A stretch of 35,798 nt of DNA from Candidatus Yanofskyibacteriota bacterium. GTDB taxonomy: Bacteria > Patescibacteriota > Minisyncoccia > 2-02-FULL-40-12 > GWA2-44-9. Shown here in pieces: positions 6,943 through 14,810 of the stretch. The stretch is taken from the NCBI GenBank assembly GCA_003151795.1, contig PLYL01000012.1, positions 1 through 35,798 of the forward strand, read 5' to 3'. A program made the translations under genes and the position numbers. The notes beneath the pieces were generated by a model that worked only from the letters and a program-made list of their open reading frames with translations, ran no database searches and had not been told where the DNA came from. How positions within the stretch are numbered: the stretch's first letter is position 1; each line of letters starts with the position of its first letter.

Positions 6943-9687
6943 TTAAGCGCTCGCCATCATAGTGGCTTTCCAGATTGCGATTGCTTTGTCGGTCGCGCCC
7001 ATTTTTATCCACATACTTTTCATCGCAATGTCTTTAAGTACTCCGCCTGAAGTTGCTTTCCATAATACTTCCCCTGTCTTCGCGACAACTTTAACACCAT
7101 TTTCTTTGGCCATCGCGGTCGTGGCATACTGAATCATCTGTTGAGTTGGATGCGCAACGCCAGCCATATGCCATTTAATAACTGCTAGATGAGTGAGGGT
7201 TTTCTCCATCCACATGGGCCCAGATTCTTTGGCGACCACTGCCCCGCCTTTTGCGATTGCGCCAGCCCCAGCTTTCCCAGCGAATAATGGTGCAACGACA
7301 TGGGCTATTCCCACTCCCCACACAACAGCATCCAACGTGCCCCAGACATAGCGCCACCACCAATTTTCGTCTAAATCTTGGCGAATCACTTTAGTTAAAT
7401 CTTTGGCGTCGGCTTCTGCGTGACCCGAACGCATGGCCACTAAACGGTTGCGCATTTCGGTCGCGATTTTGCTTTTGTTTTCTTCGGTCAAGACATCGGC
7501 ACCCGTGTCGGTTTTATACTCCTTGAGTTTTTTCTCAAGTCTATCAATCTCCATAAGAACAATGTCGTCTATCTTGGCATCATTTTCGGCAACGCGACGT
7601 TGGGTAATTTCCGCCGACAATTCTATGAATCTGGAATCGCCAACCGTGTTTTTACCTTCGGCTTTCATCTTGCCGACGATTTCCCGCGCTTGGTCTTCGG
7701 CGTCATCCTGCGACAAGTAACCACGCTCTTGTTTAATCAGTCTCGCGAATGATGCGACATCGTGGGCAATTTCTTTGGTGCCTTGGCGTAATGTTTCCGC
7801 AGAATAAAATTCTTTATAACCAGCAGTACCCAAACCCATCAATCGCTGTTTGATAAATTTACCAACGCTTCCTTCTTGAGGATGAGATTCGATGGCATCG
7901 ATTTCGGCGCGTTCGATTTCTTCGGGAGTGGCCCGAGTCTTATCAGGCGCTTCGCTCAAATTAAGTGTTGTGTGTTTGTTTCGTTCTAACTTTAATTTAT
8001 TTTTAACGGCGCGAAATGCCTTCAGAGCTGTTTCTTTAAACTTGGTGCCAAAACCGACGCGTTCGTTCATCTCGTCGTTGATACGACGTCGCTCCTCGAG
8101 TAATGCTTTAATCTCGTGCCGTGCTCGCATCTTACCCATCTGGTTCCACATCGGAAAGGCATCGCGCTCAAGAGTTTTGGCCAGAATCCTTTTGTCGAGC
8201 TCAACCAAAATGGCACGCAGGTATTCCATGCGACGATTCTTGGCCTCAGCTTGGGCCCTTTCGCTCACGAGCGGTTTCTCTGATACTTTTTCAGAGGTTG
8301 GCTGATTTTCTTTTGGCGCTGGAGTCGGCGGAGAGGACTTTTCCTGAGGTGTAGAACCTGGCGAAGGTTGTTGTTCAGACGAACCCGCGATTACAACCGG
8401 CTTTGCTAATTCTTCATTGAGCCTCATGATATCTCGAGCCAAGGCTTTCTTACGAGCTTGGGCTTCTTTGAGATCGGCAATATTCGCGTCGGCGTATCGG
8501 CTTGGCACGCCCCCTGTCTTTGAAATCATGTCCGTATCAAACTTTACCAGCTTTTCATATTTGGCAATCTCCGCGTCGATCGCGGCCAGCTCTTTTGTTT
8601 TTTCATCAACTGATACCAGCAGGGCTTCAGTTACCAATCGTTCAGGGGTCAGTTGTTCCCAGCGTTTTTCGATATCCTCCGTTTGAGAGAGTCGCATCAA
8701 CTCCGCATATTGGTCATCGGAAATTCCTTCGATGGAAGCTAGGTACGTATATTGTCTATCCTGAAATTCTTTGCGTAATAGTTGATACGCGGCAGTTTCT
8801 TCCGCCGTCAGGGTCTTATGTTCGGTGCGAAATACTTTCATTTTCTCTTGCGCTAAAACAGCATTTCGCTGAAGCCCGAGTGATTTAAAGAATCGTTCTC
8901 GGTTGTCTTCTTTTGGCACTTTGGGCAGATGCAGTCTGGCTTCATCTTCTTCGGCATCAGGAGATTTTTCACGAGCATGATGCGGTTGCGCCGTATCCAC
9001 AGGTTTAGACTCAACCAAATCTTCTTTGGCATCAGGCACCTCGGCGTCTTGGTAAGCTTTGTCTCTTCTGAGCTCGTCTCGACGCGCCATAAGCCGTTTG
9101 ATTTTTTCTTCATCGCCATAGAAATGAATAGTGGCCTTGTTCGTGCGGTCGTGATTAACTAAAATCTGCTCCCTCGCTATCTCCCTATCAAGAGATTCAA
9201 TAGAATCATTGTCATATTCTGGCGACTTTGGTTCAAAAGATTTAAACACACGCGGAACACGAGACTTCTTTTCCGGTGACGGTTTAAAATTTATCTTAGG
9301 AAATTGATCTTCTGGTTCGGGTTCTAAGTGTAGCCTGTCGCCGACCTGCTCATCTTCTGGGGCAGGCAAAGTTTCCGGCGGCGCAACATCTTCCTGTCTT
9401 GACCCGGACAAGTTAAATACACCGCCCTCTTCTCCTTTAAGATTTTTAAGGCTAAATCTTCTTGGAGGTAGTGGCGGAGCGTCGGGATGAGCTCGGCTTG
9501 GCAGTTCTTCGCCAAGTCCAAAATCATTCTGTGGCCCAGTTTCAGTTTTATCCGAGCCTTCACTCCTCAATGGCACCTTGCTTCGCAAATCAAAATCGGG
9601 ATCTATTGGAGGTTTTTCAGGTGGCTTACCCTTTCCCGGCTCCTCGGCCGCGGCCAACCTTACGCGAGGTTTTCTTGGCATATGCAT
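6943..9687 (-). CDS. large coiled-coil protein with C-terminal hydrophobic region, 914 aa
   Basis: No named family is recognised. Residues 1 to about 150 are Pro/Glu/Lys-rich and probably disordered. Long charged helices with coiled-coil character follow, interrupted near 440-470 by a Pro/Ser/Thr-rich linker. The last 130 or so residues begin with WWWRYVWG and contain Gly/Ala-rich hydrophobic stretches (AVVWGVGIAHVVAPLFAG) that could insert in a membrane. It opens the operon leading to the TraD-like ATPase. A TATAAA box ends 5 bp before ATG 9687, so the mRNA is probably leaderless; Met-3 (9681) is an alternative start. A surface or secretion-apparatus component is plausible but unproven. Confidence 0.8.
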   Translation of the reverse strand: MHMPRKPRVRLAAAEEPGKGKPPEKPPIDPDFDLRSKVPLRSEGSDKTETGPQNDFGLGEELPSRAHPDAPPLPPRRFSLKNLKGEEGGVFNLSGSRQEDVAPPETLPAPEDEQVGDRLHLEPEPEDQFPKINFKPSPEKKSRVPRVFKSFEPKSPEYDNDSIESLDREIAREQILVNHDRTNKATIHFYGDEEKIKRLMARRDELRRDKAYQDAEVPDAKEDLVESKPVDTAQPHHAREKSPDAEEDEARLHLPKVPKEDNRERFFKSLGLQRNAVLAQEKMKVFRTEHKTLTAEETAAYQLLRKEFQDRQYTYLASIEGISDDQYAELMRLSQTEDIEKRWEQLTPERLVTEALLVSVDEKTKELAAIDAEIAKYEKLVKFDTDMISKTGGVPSRYADANIADLKEAQARKKALARDIMRLNEELAKPVVIAGSSEQQPSPGSTPQEKSSPPTPAPKENQPTSEKVSEKPLVSERAQAEAKNRRMEYLRAILVELDKRILAKTLERDAFPMWNQMGKMRARHEIKALLEERRRINDEMNERVGFGTKFKETALKAFRAVKNKLKLERNKHTTLNLSEAPDKTRATPEEIERAEIDAIESHPQEGSVGKFIKQRLMGLGTAGYKEFYSAETLRQGTKEIAHDVASFARLIKQERGYLSQDDAEDQAREIVGKMKAEGKNTVGDSRFIELSAEITQRRVAENDAKIDDIVLMEIDRLEKKLKEYKTDTGADVLTEENKSKIATEMRNRLVAMRSGHAEADAKDLTKVIRQDLDENWWWRYVWGTLDAVVWGVGIAHVVAPLFAGKAGAGAIAKGGAVVAKESGPMWMEKTLTHLAVIKWHMAGVAHPTQQMIQYATTAMAKENGVKVVAKTGEVLWKATSGGVLKDIAMKSMWIKMGATDKAIAIWKATMMASA

Positions 9688-11443: not shown

Positions 11444-13201
11444 GTGAAAAAATATCCTCTTTTGGCTGGCCTGCTAATTGCCGTCGCCAGTGTTGTCGCC
11501 ATCGCGAGCGCTTGGCACGACGCCCCGATTGTTGATGAAGACCCCCACATCGGCGCGGGCTATTCTTATATTGCCGGACACACCTATGAATTCAATCCCG
11601 AACATCCGCCCCTCGCCAAAGACTTCGCCGGCCTCGCTCTCATTTTCCTCCATATCAATCCGAAAATTCTTCCGACCGCCGAAACGGCGGTGAACGACCA
11701 GTGGAACTTCGGACGATCGCTCATCTATCATTCCGGCGTGGACCCGATTTTACTCATTCACGTCGCTCGGTTGCCGCTTATTTTATTCTTTATTTTTTGC
11801 GGTTGGCTGATTTTTCTCTGGGCCCGCAAAACGTATAATTCTCGGGCCGCTCTTCTGGCGGTCTTTCTTTTTGCGTTCTGTCCCACCGTAATCGCTCACA
11901 GCCGGTTCGTCACGACTGATGTTCCCGCTCTCTTCGGCGTTTTGTTCGCGACTTATTTTTTCCTCCGCTACCTCCAAGAACAAAAAACCGCCAATTTCTG
12001 GCTGGCTTCGCTTTCCTTCGGCATCGCCCTCCTCACCAAATTTTCCACCTTTCTTCTTGTTCCGTATTTCCTACTCTTAGTCCTTGTTTGGGCTTGGTCT
12101 CAACATCGTGAGTTCTTCAAGCCTGCTCTTCGCCTGCTGGTAAAAAGTATTTTGGTAATGGCGGTTGGTTTTGTGGTTGTCGTCGGGTCAGTTTATCAAC
12201 TGCATGTCTTTGACTATCCGCCGGCTCAACAAAAAAATGACGCGGCCACGATTCTCACTGGATACCAGATTCCGATTGTCGCGGATATCGTTGTTTGGGG
12301 TTCGGATAAACCCATCCTCCGCGCTTACGCTCAATGGGGCCTCGGTCTGGCGATGGTCTTCCAGCGCGCCGAGGGCGGGAACCGCACCTATTACCTCGGA
12401 CAGCTTTCGAGCACCGCCTTCAAATCATATTTCCCCGTCGTCTACGCACTCAAAGAACCCATTCCGTTCCTAATTCTTCTTTTATGCGCGATCTGGATTG
12501 GCTGGCGGGCCTGGCGCGCCGGCCACGGGCCGTTTAAAAACAAGATCCGGGACCATTTCCCGGTCTTCGCGATGCTTATCTGGATTATTATTTATGTGGC
12601 GACGAGCATCAACGTCAATCTTAACATCGGCATCCGCCACCTCATGCCGATTTATGGATTTATATTTATATTAGTCGCGGGCGCGATTGAGAATAGTATT
12701 ACGAAGTACGAATTACGAAGTACGAATCGAACTCTAAAATCCTTAATTCTTAACTCTAAATTCTTAATTCTATTGTTACTTGCCTGGTACTTAGCCGAAT
12801 TCATTTCAGTGTACCCTTACTATTTAACTTATTTTAACGAATTCGCCGGCGGGCCCTCGGGCGGACACAATTATGTCGTCGATTCAAATCTCGACTGGGG
12901 CCAAGATTTATGGCGCCTGGGCGACTATGTTAAAGCCAATCATATTCAAAAAATATACTTGGATTATTTCGGCTGGGCCGAACAATCTTTCTATCTCGGC
13001 GACTCATTCGTGTGGATGCATGCCGGCCAATATCCAAGCAAGGCCCAATTCCTTAAAGACAACTCGGCTGGCGGATGGCTCGGAGTTTCAGCCAGCTACT
13101 ACCAAGAATCAACTGTTGATCCCGCCCAGCCCTATGCCTGGCTCGGCCAACCGACGACGGTAATAGGGAATTCGATTTTTGTTTTCCACGTAACTCCCTA
13201 G
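11444..13201 (+). CDS. GT-C fold membrane glycosyltransferase (family 39-like), 585 aa
   Basis: This is a second polytopic glycosyltransferase, starting with GTG at 11444. After the first helix comes APIVDEDPHIGAGYSYI, the loop-1 acidic motif, then EHPPLAKDF, seen in related enzymes. Many membrane helices follow, and then a soluble C-terminal domain (YFNEFAGGPSGG, DSNLDWGQDL). Residues of about 421-444 (TKYELRSTNRTLKSLILNSK) are encoded by a low-complexity AT-rich tract unlike the rest of the gene and probably represent an in-frame insertion in a loop. It likely glycosylates surface lipids or proteins together with the upstream enzyme. Confidence 0.8.
   Translation: MKKYPLLAGLLIAVASVVAIASAWHDAPIVDEDPHIGAGYSYIAGHTYEFNPEHPPLAKDFAGLALIFLHINPKILPTAETAVNDQWNFGRSLIYHSGVDPILLIHVARLPLILFFIFCGWLIFLWARKTYNSRAALLAVFLFAFCPTVIAHSRFVTTDVPALFGVLFATYFFLRYLQEQKTANFWLASLSFGIALLTKFSTFLLVPYFLLLVLVWAWSQHREFFKPALRLLVKSILVMAVGFVVVVGSVYQLHVFDYPPAQQKNDAATILTGYQIPIVADIVVWGSDKPILRAYAQWGLGLAMVFQRAEGGNRTYYLGQLSSTAFKSYFPVVYALKEPIPFLILLLCAIWIGWRAWRAGHGPFKNKIRDHFPVFAMLIWIIIYVATSINVNLNIGIRHLMPIYGFIFILVAGAIENSITKYELRSTNRTLKSLILNSKFLILLLLAWYLAEFISVYPYYLTYFNEFAGGPSGGHNYVVDSNLDWGQDLWRLGDYVKANHIQKIYLDYFGWAEQSFYLGDSFVWMHAGQYPSKAQFLKDNSAGGWLGVSASYYQESTVDPAQPYAWLGQPTTVIGNSIFVFHVTP
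12704..12775. repeat. low-complexity tract inside a coding region
   Basis: A 14-base unit ACGAAGTACGAATT is repeated twice, then come TTAATTCTTAACTCTAAAT-type degenerate repeats. The tract resembles the TAG/AATTC-rich intergenic spacers seen elsewhere in this window, but here it is read in frame within a glycosyltransferase gene. Confidence 0.7.
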
Positions 13202-13230
13202 TCTAGGTATTTCAAAATTATACTCCTCGG

Positions 13231-13310
13231 AAAATAAAAAACGGCCTCCAAGGCCAGAACTAGAAGACATGGAATACCCATGTTGCTAATGTTCTGTCTT
13301 GAAAGGCCGT
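13231..13310 (-). terminator. terminator hairpin of the ncRNA candidate
   Basis: ACGGCCT...AGGCCGT encloses CAAG/CTTG, CAGAAC/GTTCTG and ACATGG/CCATGT pairs in one long interrupted stem (13310-13241), followed on the minus strand by TTTTTTATTTT. The inner GGCCT-TGG-AGGCC can also fold alone. Confidence 0.75.
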
Positions 13311-13528
13311 GTCTAGTCGAGCTACAGGTAACGAGTCCGGACGGTATGATGTGTAGAATGTCCAAGTCCACAACCATACCGTCCGGTCGCCAGCCGGGCA
13401 GTTGTTCACAGCGGATGTTGGACGCTGGCGCGTATTTTCGCGCCGTCCTCACCGCGAGTCAGCTACCAGACTTCTTATCCCGACGAATCGGGATACTATG
13501 GGCTGTCGGGACACTGCGCCTGTACTGC

Positions 13529-13580
13529 TTTTTTTTCGTTTTTTTTCGCGTTTTTTCGTTTTTTTTCGCGTTTTTTTTCT
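13529..13580. repeat. T-rich tract with CG/CGCG interruptions
   Basis: Runs of 6 to 8 T separated by CG or CGCG, two near-copies of a unit of about 22-24 bp. On the minus strand it is an A-rich single-stranded region within the ncRNA candidate. Confidence 0.8.
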
Positions 13581-13621
13581 TGGCAGGTCACAGGCCCCGA
13601 CAACCGGAGTTGAGCCTAAAC

Positions 13622-13748
13622 GGGCTCGCAAAAACCAATACTTACTTACGCTCGCTAGCTATGTCGAACTTACTATGATTTCTAAGGGCCTATCACTAAA
13701 ATGTGTTGTTGCCCGAAAGATAGCGTACTTACTGGTTTTTGCGAGCCC
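13622..13748. repeat. 16-bp inverted repeat inside the ncRNA candidate
   Basis: GGGCTCGCAAAAACCA (13622-13637) has its exact reverse complement at 13733-13748, with 95 nt between. The GGGCTC end can instead pair with the neighbouring GAGCCC (a 7-bp GNRA-type hairpin), so two exclusive folds are possible. Confidence 0.9.
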
Positions 13749-13785
13749 ATTGCTGGGCTCTTTATAAAGAACAGCTTAGACATCC

Positions 13786-13814
13786 ATTATAGCAGGTGGG
13801 GGTTAGGAAGTCAA
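13786..13814 (-). promoter_or_regulatory. strong sigma70-type promoter of the ncRNA candidate
   Basis: TTGACT (13814-13809), 17-bp spacer, TATAAT (13791-13786). This is the best promoter in the window. Predicted start near 13779. Confidence 0.85.
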
Positions 13815-13855
13815 CCCCTTGTTAAAACCCCGGTAAATCAAGTGTTTTTGAGCTT

Positions 13856-13899
13856 TTATTATCATATAAGTATATTCGAATATATTTATATGATAATAA
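13856..13899. repeat. 44-bp AT-rich near-perfect palindrome
   Basis: TTATTATCATATAA... pairs across a CG centre at 13877/13878 with one mismatch in 22 bp. It lies just after the ftsQ-like stop and before the ncRNA promoter. No T-run follows on either strand, so it is not a standard terminator. Confidence 0.9.
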
Positions 13900-13916
13900 C
13901 CCGAACAAGAGTTACT

Positions 13917-14810
13917 TTATCTATAATACACCCTTCCATCAAAGCGCAGGTCTATATATTGGGGGTGGAGCGTACCATCGGCCATTTTTTGGGTTCTGAA
14001 GATGCGAAAGACATCGAGCTGGCTTTGGATATCCGAATCGAGGCTGAATTTAATTAGATAGCTACTTGTCCCGGCAGAGTTCCCAAGGAGTGTTGGGATA
14101 CCCACTCCGGGAACCAGCGAGGCGGGGTCCCCCACCAAAATATCAAATTCGGTATACGTATCCACTGGAATAGTGATATTTTTAACTTTAACTCCCTGAC
14201 TCGTCAGCGCGGGCACCACGGCCTGAATGGCTTTGAGAAATCTTTGGTCGACTGTTACCAGAGACGCCGAGGCCGATTGAACGCGCATATCATCGACATT
14301 GAGCAACAGCACGCCAGATGATTGAATCGCCTGACCGAAAGTTACGCCGTCATTATCAAAGTATCGGCAATCAGGACTTATGGTGAGGGAGCCTGAATCA
14401 AAGCACCAGACGCCCTCGGCCTGACGCTCGGTCGCCGTAATTTTGAGGGTATGAAAATATTTTTTCTGAATGGTAATATTTTGGATGAATGAAAACTGCG
14501 AAGTTAAATCGGCGGCCAACGCGCCGGCGCGGATAAATAATATGTCTCGGCCAATCGGAATACCCAGTATCTTACGGCCCAAAACATTATCGACAACCCG
14601 CCCCACGGCATCCTGATGCCCGCCAAGAATACCATCATAAGTAACCGCAGTTACTTTCAACCACGGCGCGTAGAAGAGTCCGTAACCGATACCGCTAATT
14701 ATTAGAAGCGCCGCCAGACTAATCAACCCCGCTTTCACATGAAAACTATGGCGTCTCTTCGACGCCAGATTATCCTTATATTTAAATTTCTTAACGTCGA
14801 CTGGTCGCAC
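13917..14810 (-). CDS. ftsQ: FtsQ/DivIB-like cell division protein, 297 aa
   Basis: This is a bitopic membrane protein with a basic cytoplasmic N-terminus (KKFKYKDNLASKRRHSF), one helix at about residues 29-48, then a POTRA-like section (FIQNITIQKKYFHTLKITATER) and a C-terminal domain ending YIDLRFDGRVYYR, a pattern common at the end of FtsQ/DivIB. FtsQ links early and late division proteins. The start is GTG at 14810. It follows serS across a TAG-rich spacer in the lysS-serS series. FtsQ is weakly conserved, so the call rests on topology and the C-terminal motif. Confidence 0.65.
   Translation of the reverse strand: MRPVDVKKFKYKDNLASKRRHSFHVKAGLISLAALLIISGIGYGLFYAPWLKVTAVTYDGILGGHQDAVGRVVDNVLGRKILGIPIGRDILFIRAGALAADLTSQFSFIQNITIQKKYFHTLKITATERQAEGVWCFDSGSLTISPDCRYFDNDGVTFGQAIQSSGVLLLNVDDMRVQSASASLVTVDQRFLKAIQAVVPALTSQGVKVKNITIPVDTYTEFDILVGDPASLVPGVGIPTLLGNSAGTSSYLIKFSLDSDIQSQLDVFRIFRTQKMADGTLHPQYIDLRFDGRVYYR

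Follow-up and report, generated by a model that had tools for sequence, protein, structure and literature searches.

Genomic context and transcription unit

The window, by which we mean the whole 35,798-nucleotide stretch of DNA that was analyzed, contains a predicted RNA gene flanked on one side by serS and an ftsQ-like gene; on its other side are two convergent PMT_2 glycosyltransferase genes. Pfam was applied to the proteins of the window only, and the ftsQ-type POTRA match fell just below its cut-off. A 22 bp AT-rich inverted repeat without a spacer, possibly serving as an operator or terminator, occupies positions 13856-13899, between the ftsQ-like gene and the promoter of the RNA. Elsewhere in the window, a 914-amino-acid protein encoded at 6943-9687 on the minus strand had no Pfam match.

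A preliminary description of this DNA had proposed a strongly promoted, highly structured RNA of about 550 nt at 13225-13779. We located its promoter, a sigma70-type TTGACT-17-TATAAT site, at 13814-13786 on the minus strand; it matches the consensus at 11 of 12 positions, and TG precedes its -10 element. It was the sole 11/12 site in a scan of the whole window (seven others reached 10/12), and an equivalent layout was present upstream of all 26 homologous cores described below. The minus-strand unit also proved real, although its 3′ end falls near 13235, about 10 nt short of 13225. A terminator scan returned the expected intrinsic terminator at 13235-13256 on the same strand, consisting of a hairpin (13242-13256) and a U-run. 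The RNA probably spans positions ~13779 to ~13235 of the minus strand, a predicted length of ~545 nt.

The minus strand of 13225-13779 (555 nt) had a minimum free energy (MFE) of -222.4 kcal/mol, compared with -157.4 ± 6.8 kcal/mol for 100 dinucleotide shuffles (z = -9.55), consistent with a highly structured RNA; the plus strand of the same interval gave a z score of -6.71. The individual stems were located where they had been described. The 16 bp stem with a 95 nt loop was confirmed exactly; it belongs to a conserved helix of 19 bp (13730-13748 with 13622-13640). The 12 bp perfect stem is likewise exact (13337-13348/13375-13386), and the A-rich linker is present at 13529-13580; however, these two elements and the GC hairpins, which account for most of the stems described, lie in a poorly conserved 3′ extension. 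The longest frame in the transcript has 60 amino acids and starts with TTG, in agreement with the earlier view that there is no convincing reading frame.

Homologues and their distribution

A blastn search with the RNA against 95 related genomes recovered its 5′ part, together with the same promoter, in five genomes: three belong to the same genus and two (G009 and G005) to the same family. Where other genomes matched the A-rich linker (query ~194-255), we discounted the matches as low-complexity sequence. We also searched with covariance models under strict filters, so that all of the following counts are lower bounds: model R1 matched 17 of 45 genomes of the order, model R2 matched 23 of 383 genomes of the class, and model R3 matched two of 379 genomes drawn from the phylum, namely the window's own genome and G001. 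The R3 result argues against a universal role for the RNA. R1 and R2 combined gave 26 loci in 25 genomes (G003 has two loci), with 18 of these genomes among the 28 of the window's family and seven in other families of the class. The covariance models found no match in the remaining ten family genomes; the RNA may be dispensable, or diverged copies may have escaped the models.

Six genomes (G008, G013, G017, G020, G022, and G025) carry a second subtype, in which the promoter, the P1 helix, and an AGGC...GGCC core are kept. The weakest member, G087, has a promoter-like site 104 nt upstream of its core, and in G023 the model took the wrong 3′ arm, as judged by eye. The second locus of G003 (G003:C9:59857-60013; L109/L065/L077) is another copy of the core, with its own 11/12 promoter; its surroundings are unrelated, and a tRNA lies downstream of it. 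Pattern scans of viral contigs gave no match and then seven, which we rejected as chance matches, with R3 scores of at most 25 bits and coding-like sequence. A blastn search against phages and plasmids returned no match.

The covariance models contain no promoter, so the promoter test was independent of the searches. In the 110 nt upstream of the core, the highest-scoring sigma70-type site reached 9-12 of 12 on the sense strand and 0-8 of 12 on the antisense strand, each at all 26 loci. Sites of at least 10/12 were present at 20 of the 26 loci, compared with 51 of 4750 random windows of the same loci. That every locus has its promoter on the sense side fixes the strand and indicates that the matches are genes.

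We observed that, among the 18 main loci of the window's family, 15 keep the same convergent glycosyltransferase gene (judged by eye), and that the upstream genes at the family loci, where recognizable, are ftsQ-like, murB-like, or dnaJ-like. Outside the family, a shared neighbor gene was sought and none recurred. Since the neighbors differ there, the context marks descent rather than function.

Architecture and covariation of the core

All features below are on the minus strand. The conserved core (13622-13748) scored 143.2, 94.7, and 83 bits with R1, R2, and R3, respectively. P1 is a 19 bp helix between a 5′ arm, GGGCUCGCAAAAACCAGUA (13730-13748), and a 3′ arm, UAUUGGUUUUUGCGAGCCC (13622-13640), both assigned by covariation. 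Its outer half covaries, and its inner half, AAAGCCAGUA/UAUUGGUUU, is near-invariant, with two pairs that are mostly G-U. The P3 hairpin (13672-13724) is formed by UUUC (13715-13718) with GAAA (13679-13682) and GGGC (13711-13714) with GCCC (13686-13689), and its apical loop begins with AACA. Across the alignment, P3 reads UUUC/GAAA and then GGC/GCC, with AGC/GCU in three rows. An extra hairpin, GUUCG/CGAGC (13650-13669), is found only in the window's genus. Upstream of P1 lies the 5′ leader (13749-13779), its start inferred to be ~7 nt after the -10 element. On the other side of the core, the variable 3′ domain (13242-13621) has 13501-13510 paired with 13596-13605, and it holds the A-rich linker, the 12 bp stem (13337-13386), and a long terminator stem (13241-13310).

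In alignment A7 (18 rows), which was made by MAFFT without structure and for which the tested structure was itself named from these same sequences, 95.5% of the cells were paired, and 12 of 25 base pairs showed both-sided changes with pairing kept, amounting to 45 cells. None of 500 shuffles was as high on any of five measures, and registers slid by 1-3 columns were only 33-52% paired. Alignment A6 (11 rows), made in the same way, agreed, with 98.3% of the cells paired. Both alignments leave out G023 and the six second-subtype members, whose apical core MAFFT misaligned; A6 additionally leaves out G044, and A7 additionally leaves out G002. Over all 26 loci, the core folded with a mean z score of -5.4, and the sense strand folded better than the antisense strand in 25.

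Short and long forms of the RNA

The members of the family differ in length. In the short forms, which are six distant members (G044, G035, G050, G228, G036, and G014), an intrinsic terminator comes right after the core, at +175 to +249 from the inferred start. In the other members, the terminator, where found, lies at +367 to +815 (G087 excepted), and our rule identified none in eight loci. The six short members contain no reading frame longer than 25 amino acids, from which it follows that the core by itself constitutes the gene. Among the long forms, conservation of the 3′ domain is limited to short blocks shared by close relatives, some of them hairpins. The conserved part of the RNA is thus its 5′ core only, ~170 nt of the transcript, in which a hairpin with UUUC/GAAA and AGGC/GCC at its center caps P1. 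The 3′ domain, of 300-500 nt, appears to be a lineage-specific extension.

A leader that can compete with P1

Within the leader, GUUCUUU (13766-13772) and GAGCCC (13755-13760) are able to pair with the 5′ arm of P1. Between the leader and the first 12 nt of P1, at least six Watson-Crick pairs are possible in 14 of 25 loci, compared with 6.1% of shuffled leaders, and in G010, G015, G022, and G036 the leader and the P1 arm have changed together. The leader-arm pairing and P1 are mutually exclusive, and the pairing is possible in most members. In five of the 25 leaders, no more than four pairs are possible, and in some others the pairing segments are far apart, so a switch is not universal. We propose that a local leader hairpin would form first on the nascent RNA and would be displaced by P1 once the 3′ arm emerges; the RNA would then fold through, or switch between, two states.

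We take the GUUCUUU of the leader to resemble boxA, and boxA-led (Nus) antitermination was considered but not supported. GTTCTTTACA with at most one mismatch was absent upstream of 12 16S rRNA matches, four of which had it with two mismatches; the 16S start was assumed for some of these matches. Because the rRNA leaders of the same genomes gave no boxA match, we do not claim antitermination. The rRNA leaders in L079, L080, L082, and L083 contain a conserved stretch near AAAGAACATTGTCAATTTCATATAGTTAACCAG before the 16S gene, seen in several genomes of the family. Separately, the 16S rRNA matches of several genomes (e.g., G001, G035, and G000) were split or far longer than 1.5 kb, suggesting insertions in the rRNA gene.

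Searches against known RNA families

We searched the whole window with all 4227 Rfam 15 families, and the gathering score was reached by one tRNA only. At E ≤ 10, the region 13150-13950 gave only sub-threshold matches, mostly to eukaryotic snoRNA and microRNA families, and 17 homologous loci searched against Rfam 15 gave tRNAs only. ARAGORN found no tmRNA in the window. Among open-licence PubMed Central papers, we found no description of this RNA. The earlier proposal of a large and perhaps new noncoding RNA is borne out by the 26 homologous loci, the covariation, the conserved promoter, the terminators, and the lack of an Rfam match.

The preliminary description had also allowed for a highly diverged housekeeping RNA, and this alternative is mostly excluded, given that RNase P RNA and tmRNA are separate genes and that SRP is reported absent from Parcubacteria (PMC4508563). 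RNase P RNA lies elsewhere in the window's genome (G000:C4:56180-56708), at full length and with 88.9 bits, a score under the family cut-off. A tmRNA over the cut-off was present elsewhere in 25 of the 28 family genomes; among these, G001, G002, G003, G005, and G009 also carry the RNA described here. The window's own assembly, G000 (99.6% complete), had no tmRNA over the cut-off, probably owing to an assembly gap. The small and large covariance models of SRP RNA matched in none of the 28 family genomes, in line with PMC4508563, which reports that ffh and ffs both went undetected in genomes of Parcubacteria.

Discussion

To judge from the sequence and its comparison with homologues, positions 13779-13235 of the minus strand are an autonomous gene for a structured noncoding RNA, whose family is centered on one Paceibacteria/Yanofskybacteria family and scattered in the other families of the class. 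We predict that the RNA gene is very probably real and that its family has not been described before. It is, in our estimation, rather probable that the new family consists of trans-acting, protein-bound RNAs in which a 5′ hairpin competes with P1; of this reading, the protein and the switch are the putative parts. The conserved 5′ core, P1 with AAAGCCAGUA/UAUUGGUUU and P3 with AGGC/GCC, would be the functional part, and a protein would hold it in a small trans-acting ribonucleoprotein. One could go further and envisage the core of a ribonucleoprotein without a known counterpart in other bacteria: it would have originated in Paceibacteria as a ~180 nt rod, would have gained a second domain of 300-600 nt in the Yanofskybacteria-like family, and might exert two-state (leader hairpin versus P1) control of transcription or translation in cells that have lost SRP and have no recognizable 6S RNA. 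We regard this extended version as doubtful.

Parcubacteria are tiny parasitic bacteria, and the cultured members of this lineage parasitize methanogenic archaea. Although their genomes, at 0.4-1.2 Mb, have lost a large share of their genes, they still retain an RNA gene of its own with a strong promoter. Such a new family poses a tractable question, namely which partner it binds and which process it controls, and the RNA is an example of a short conserved core that gained a large extra domain.

Alternatively, the RNA might be a regulator that base-pairs with mRNAs through its conserved leader or loops, its stems serving only to stabilize it. The leader sequence GUUCUUU(A) is near-invariant in most family members, and the AACA start of the P3 loop is conserved, as such a role would lead one to expect; however, the most invariant sequence is paired, in P1 and P3, and the leader motif is absent from the short members, which makes this reading unlikely.

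We consider it quite unlikely that the RNA is a highly diverged 6S or Ms1-like RNA, an open-promoter mimic that would putatively hold RNA polymerase. It does resemble 6S RNA (RF00013) in having its own sigma70-type promoter, a single copy, a terminator, and rod-like minimal members of 175-249 nt. In addition, 6S RNA was undetected in all 28 family genomes, with a model that is weak and detects only five of 14 controls, and its place would be empty; Ms1, as described in PMC9130861, shows that wide divergence from 6S is possible. Against this, RF00013 had no match in the window, the long 3′ extension found in one family sets the RNA apart, and its distribution is patchy. Conservation lies in P1 and the apical core instead. 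A large central bubble is not evident, but the MFE folds of the six short members vary, with 2 and 1 unpaired nt separating P1 and P3 in G050, a loop in G044, and extra hairpins in G035, G036, and G014. Ms1 RNA of Actinobacteria is similarly lineage-specific, is longer than 6S, and was found by synteny and structure (PMC9130861), but it gave no match in the Rfam scan.

It is very improbable that the RNA is a leader or small mRNA whose 3′ part encodes a short peptide. The long members would have room for one, and the window's transcript has the 60-amino-acid frame from TTG; however, frames longer than 25 amino acids are lacking in the six short members, the 3′ domains keep little besides short blocks, some of them hairpins, and the downstream gene is convergent.

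A leader-to-long-hairpin rearrangement is a property of SRP RNA, which is also marked by an apical GGAA loop and an AGCAG motif. That our RNA is a diverged SRP, tmRNA, or RNase P RNA is scarcely credible: it shares with bacterial SRP RNA (RF00169, RF01854) a long hairpin and possibly a rearrangement of that kind, and the failure of the SRP models in 28 family genomes leaves the place empty, but neither motif was seen by eye and the idea was dropped in view of PMC4508563, which reports that the lineage lacks SRP, whereas identity with RNase P RNA or with tmRNA (RF00023), which is alike in size and single copy, is refuted by their separate genes and the lack of a covariance match in the window, and for tmRNA also by the lack of a tRNA-like domain.

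Overall, our analyses favor a new family of trans-acting, protein-bound RNAs, which may be set beside OLE, GOLLD, and ROOL among the large structured RNAs of bacteria that lack a coding frame. Those three are included in Rfam, in contrast to the present RNA, which has no match there. No mention of Patescibacteria was found in PMC12286853, which deals with ornate large RNAs. Compared with OLE, GOLLD, and ROOL, the RNA described here has a conserved core that is far smaller and simpler.
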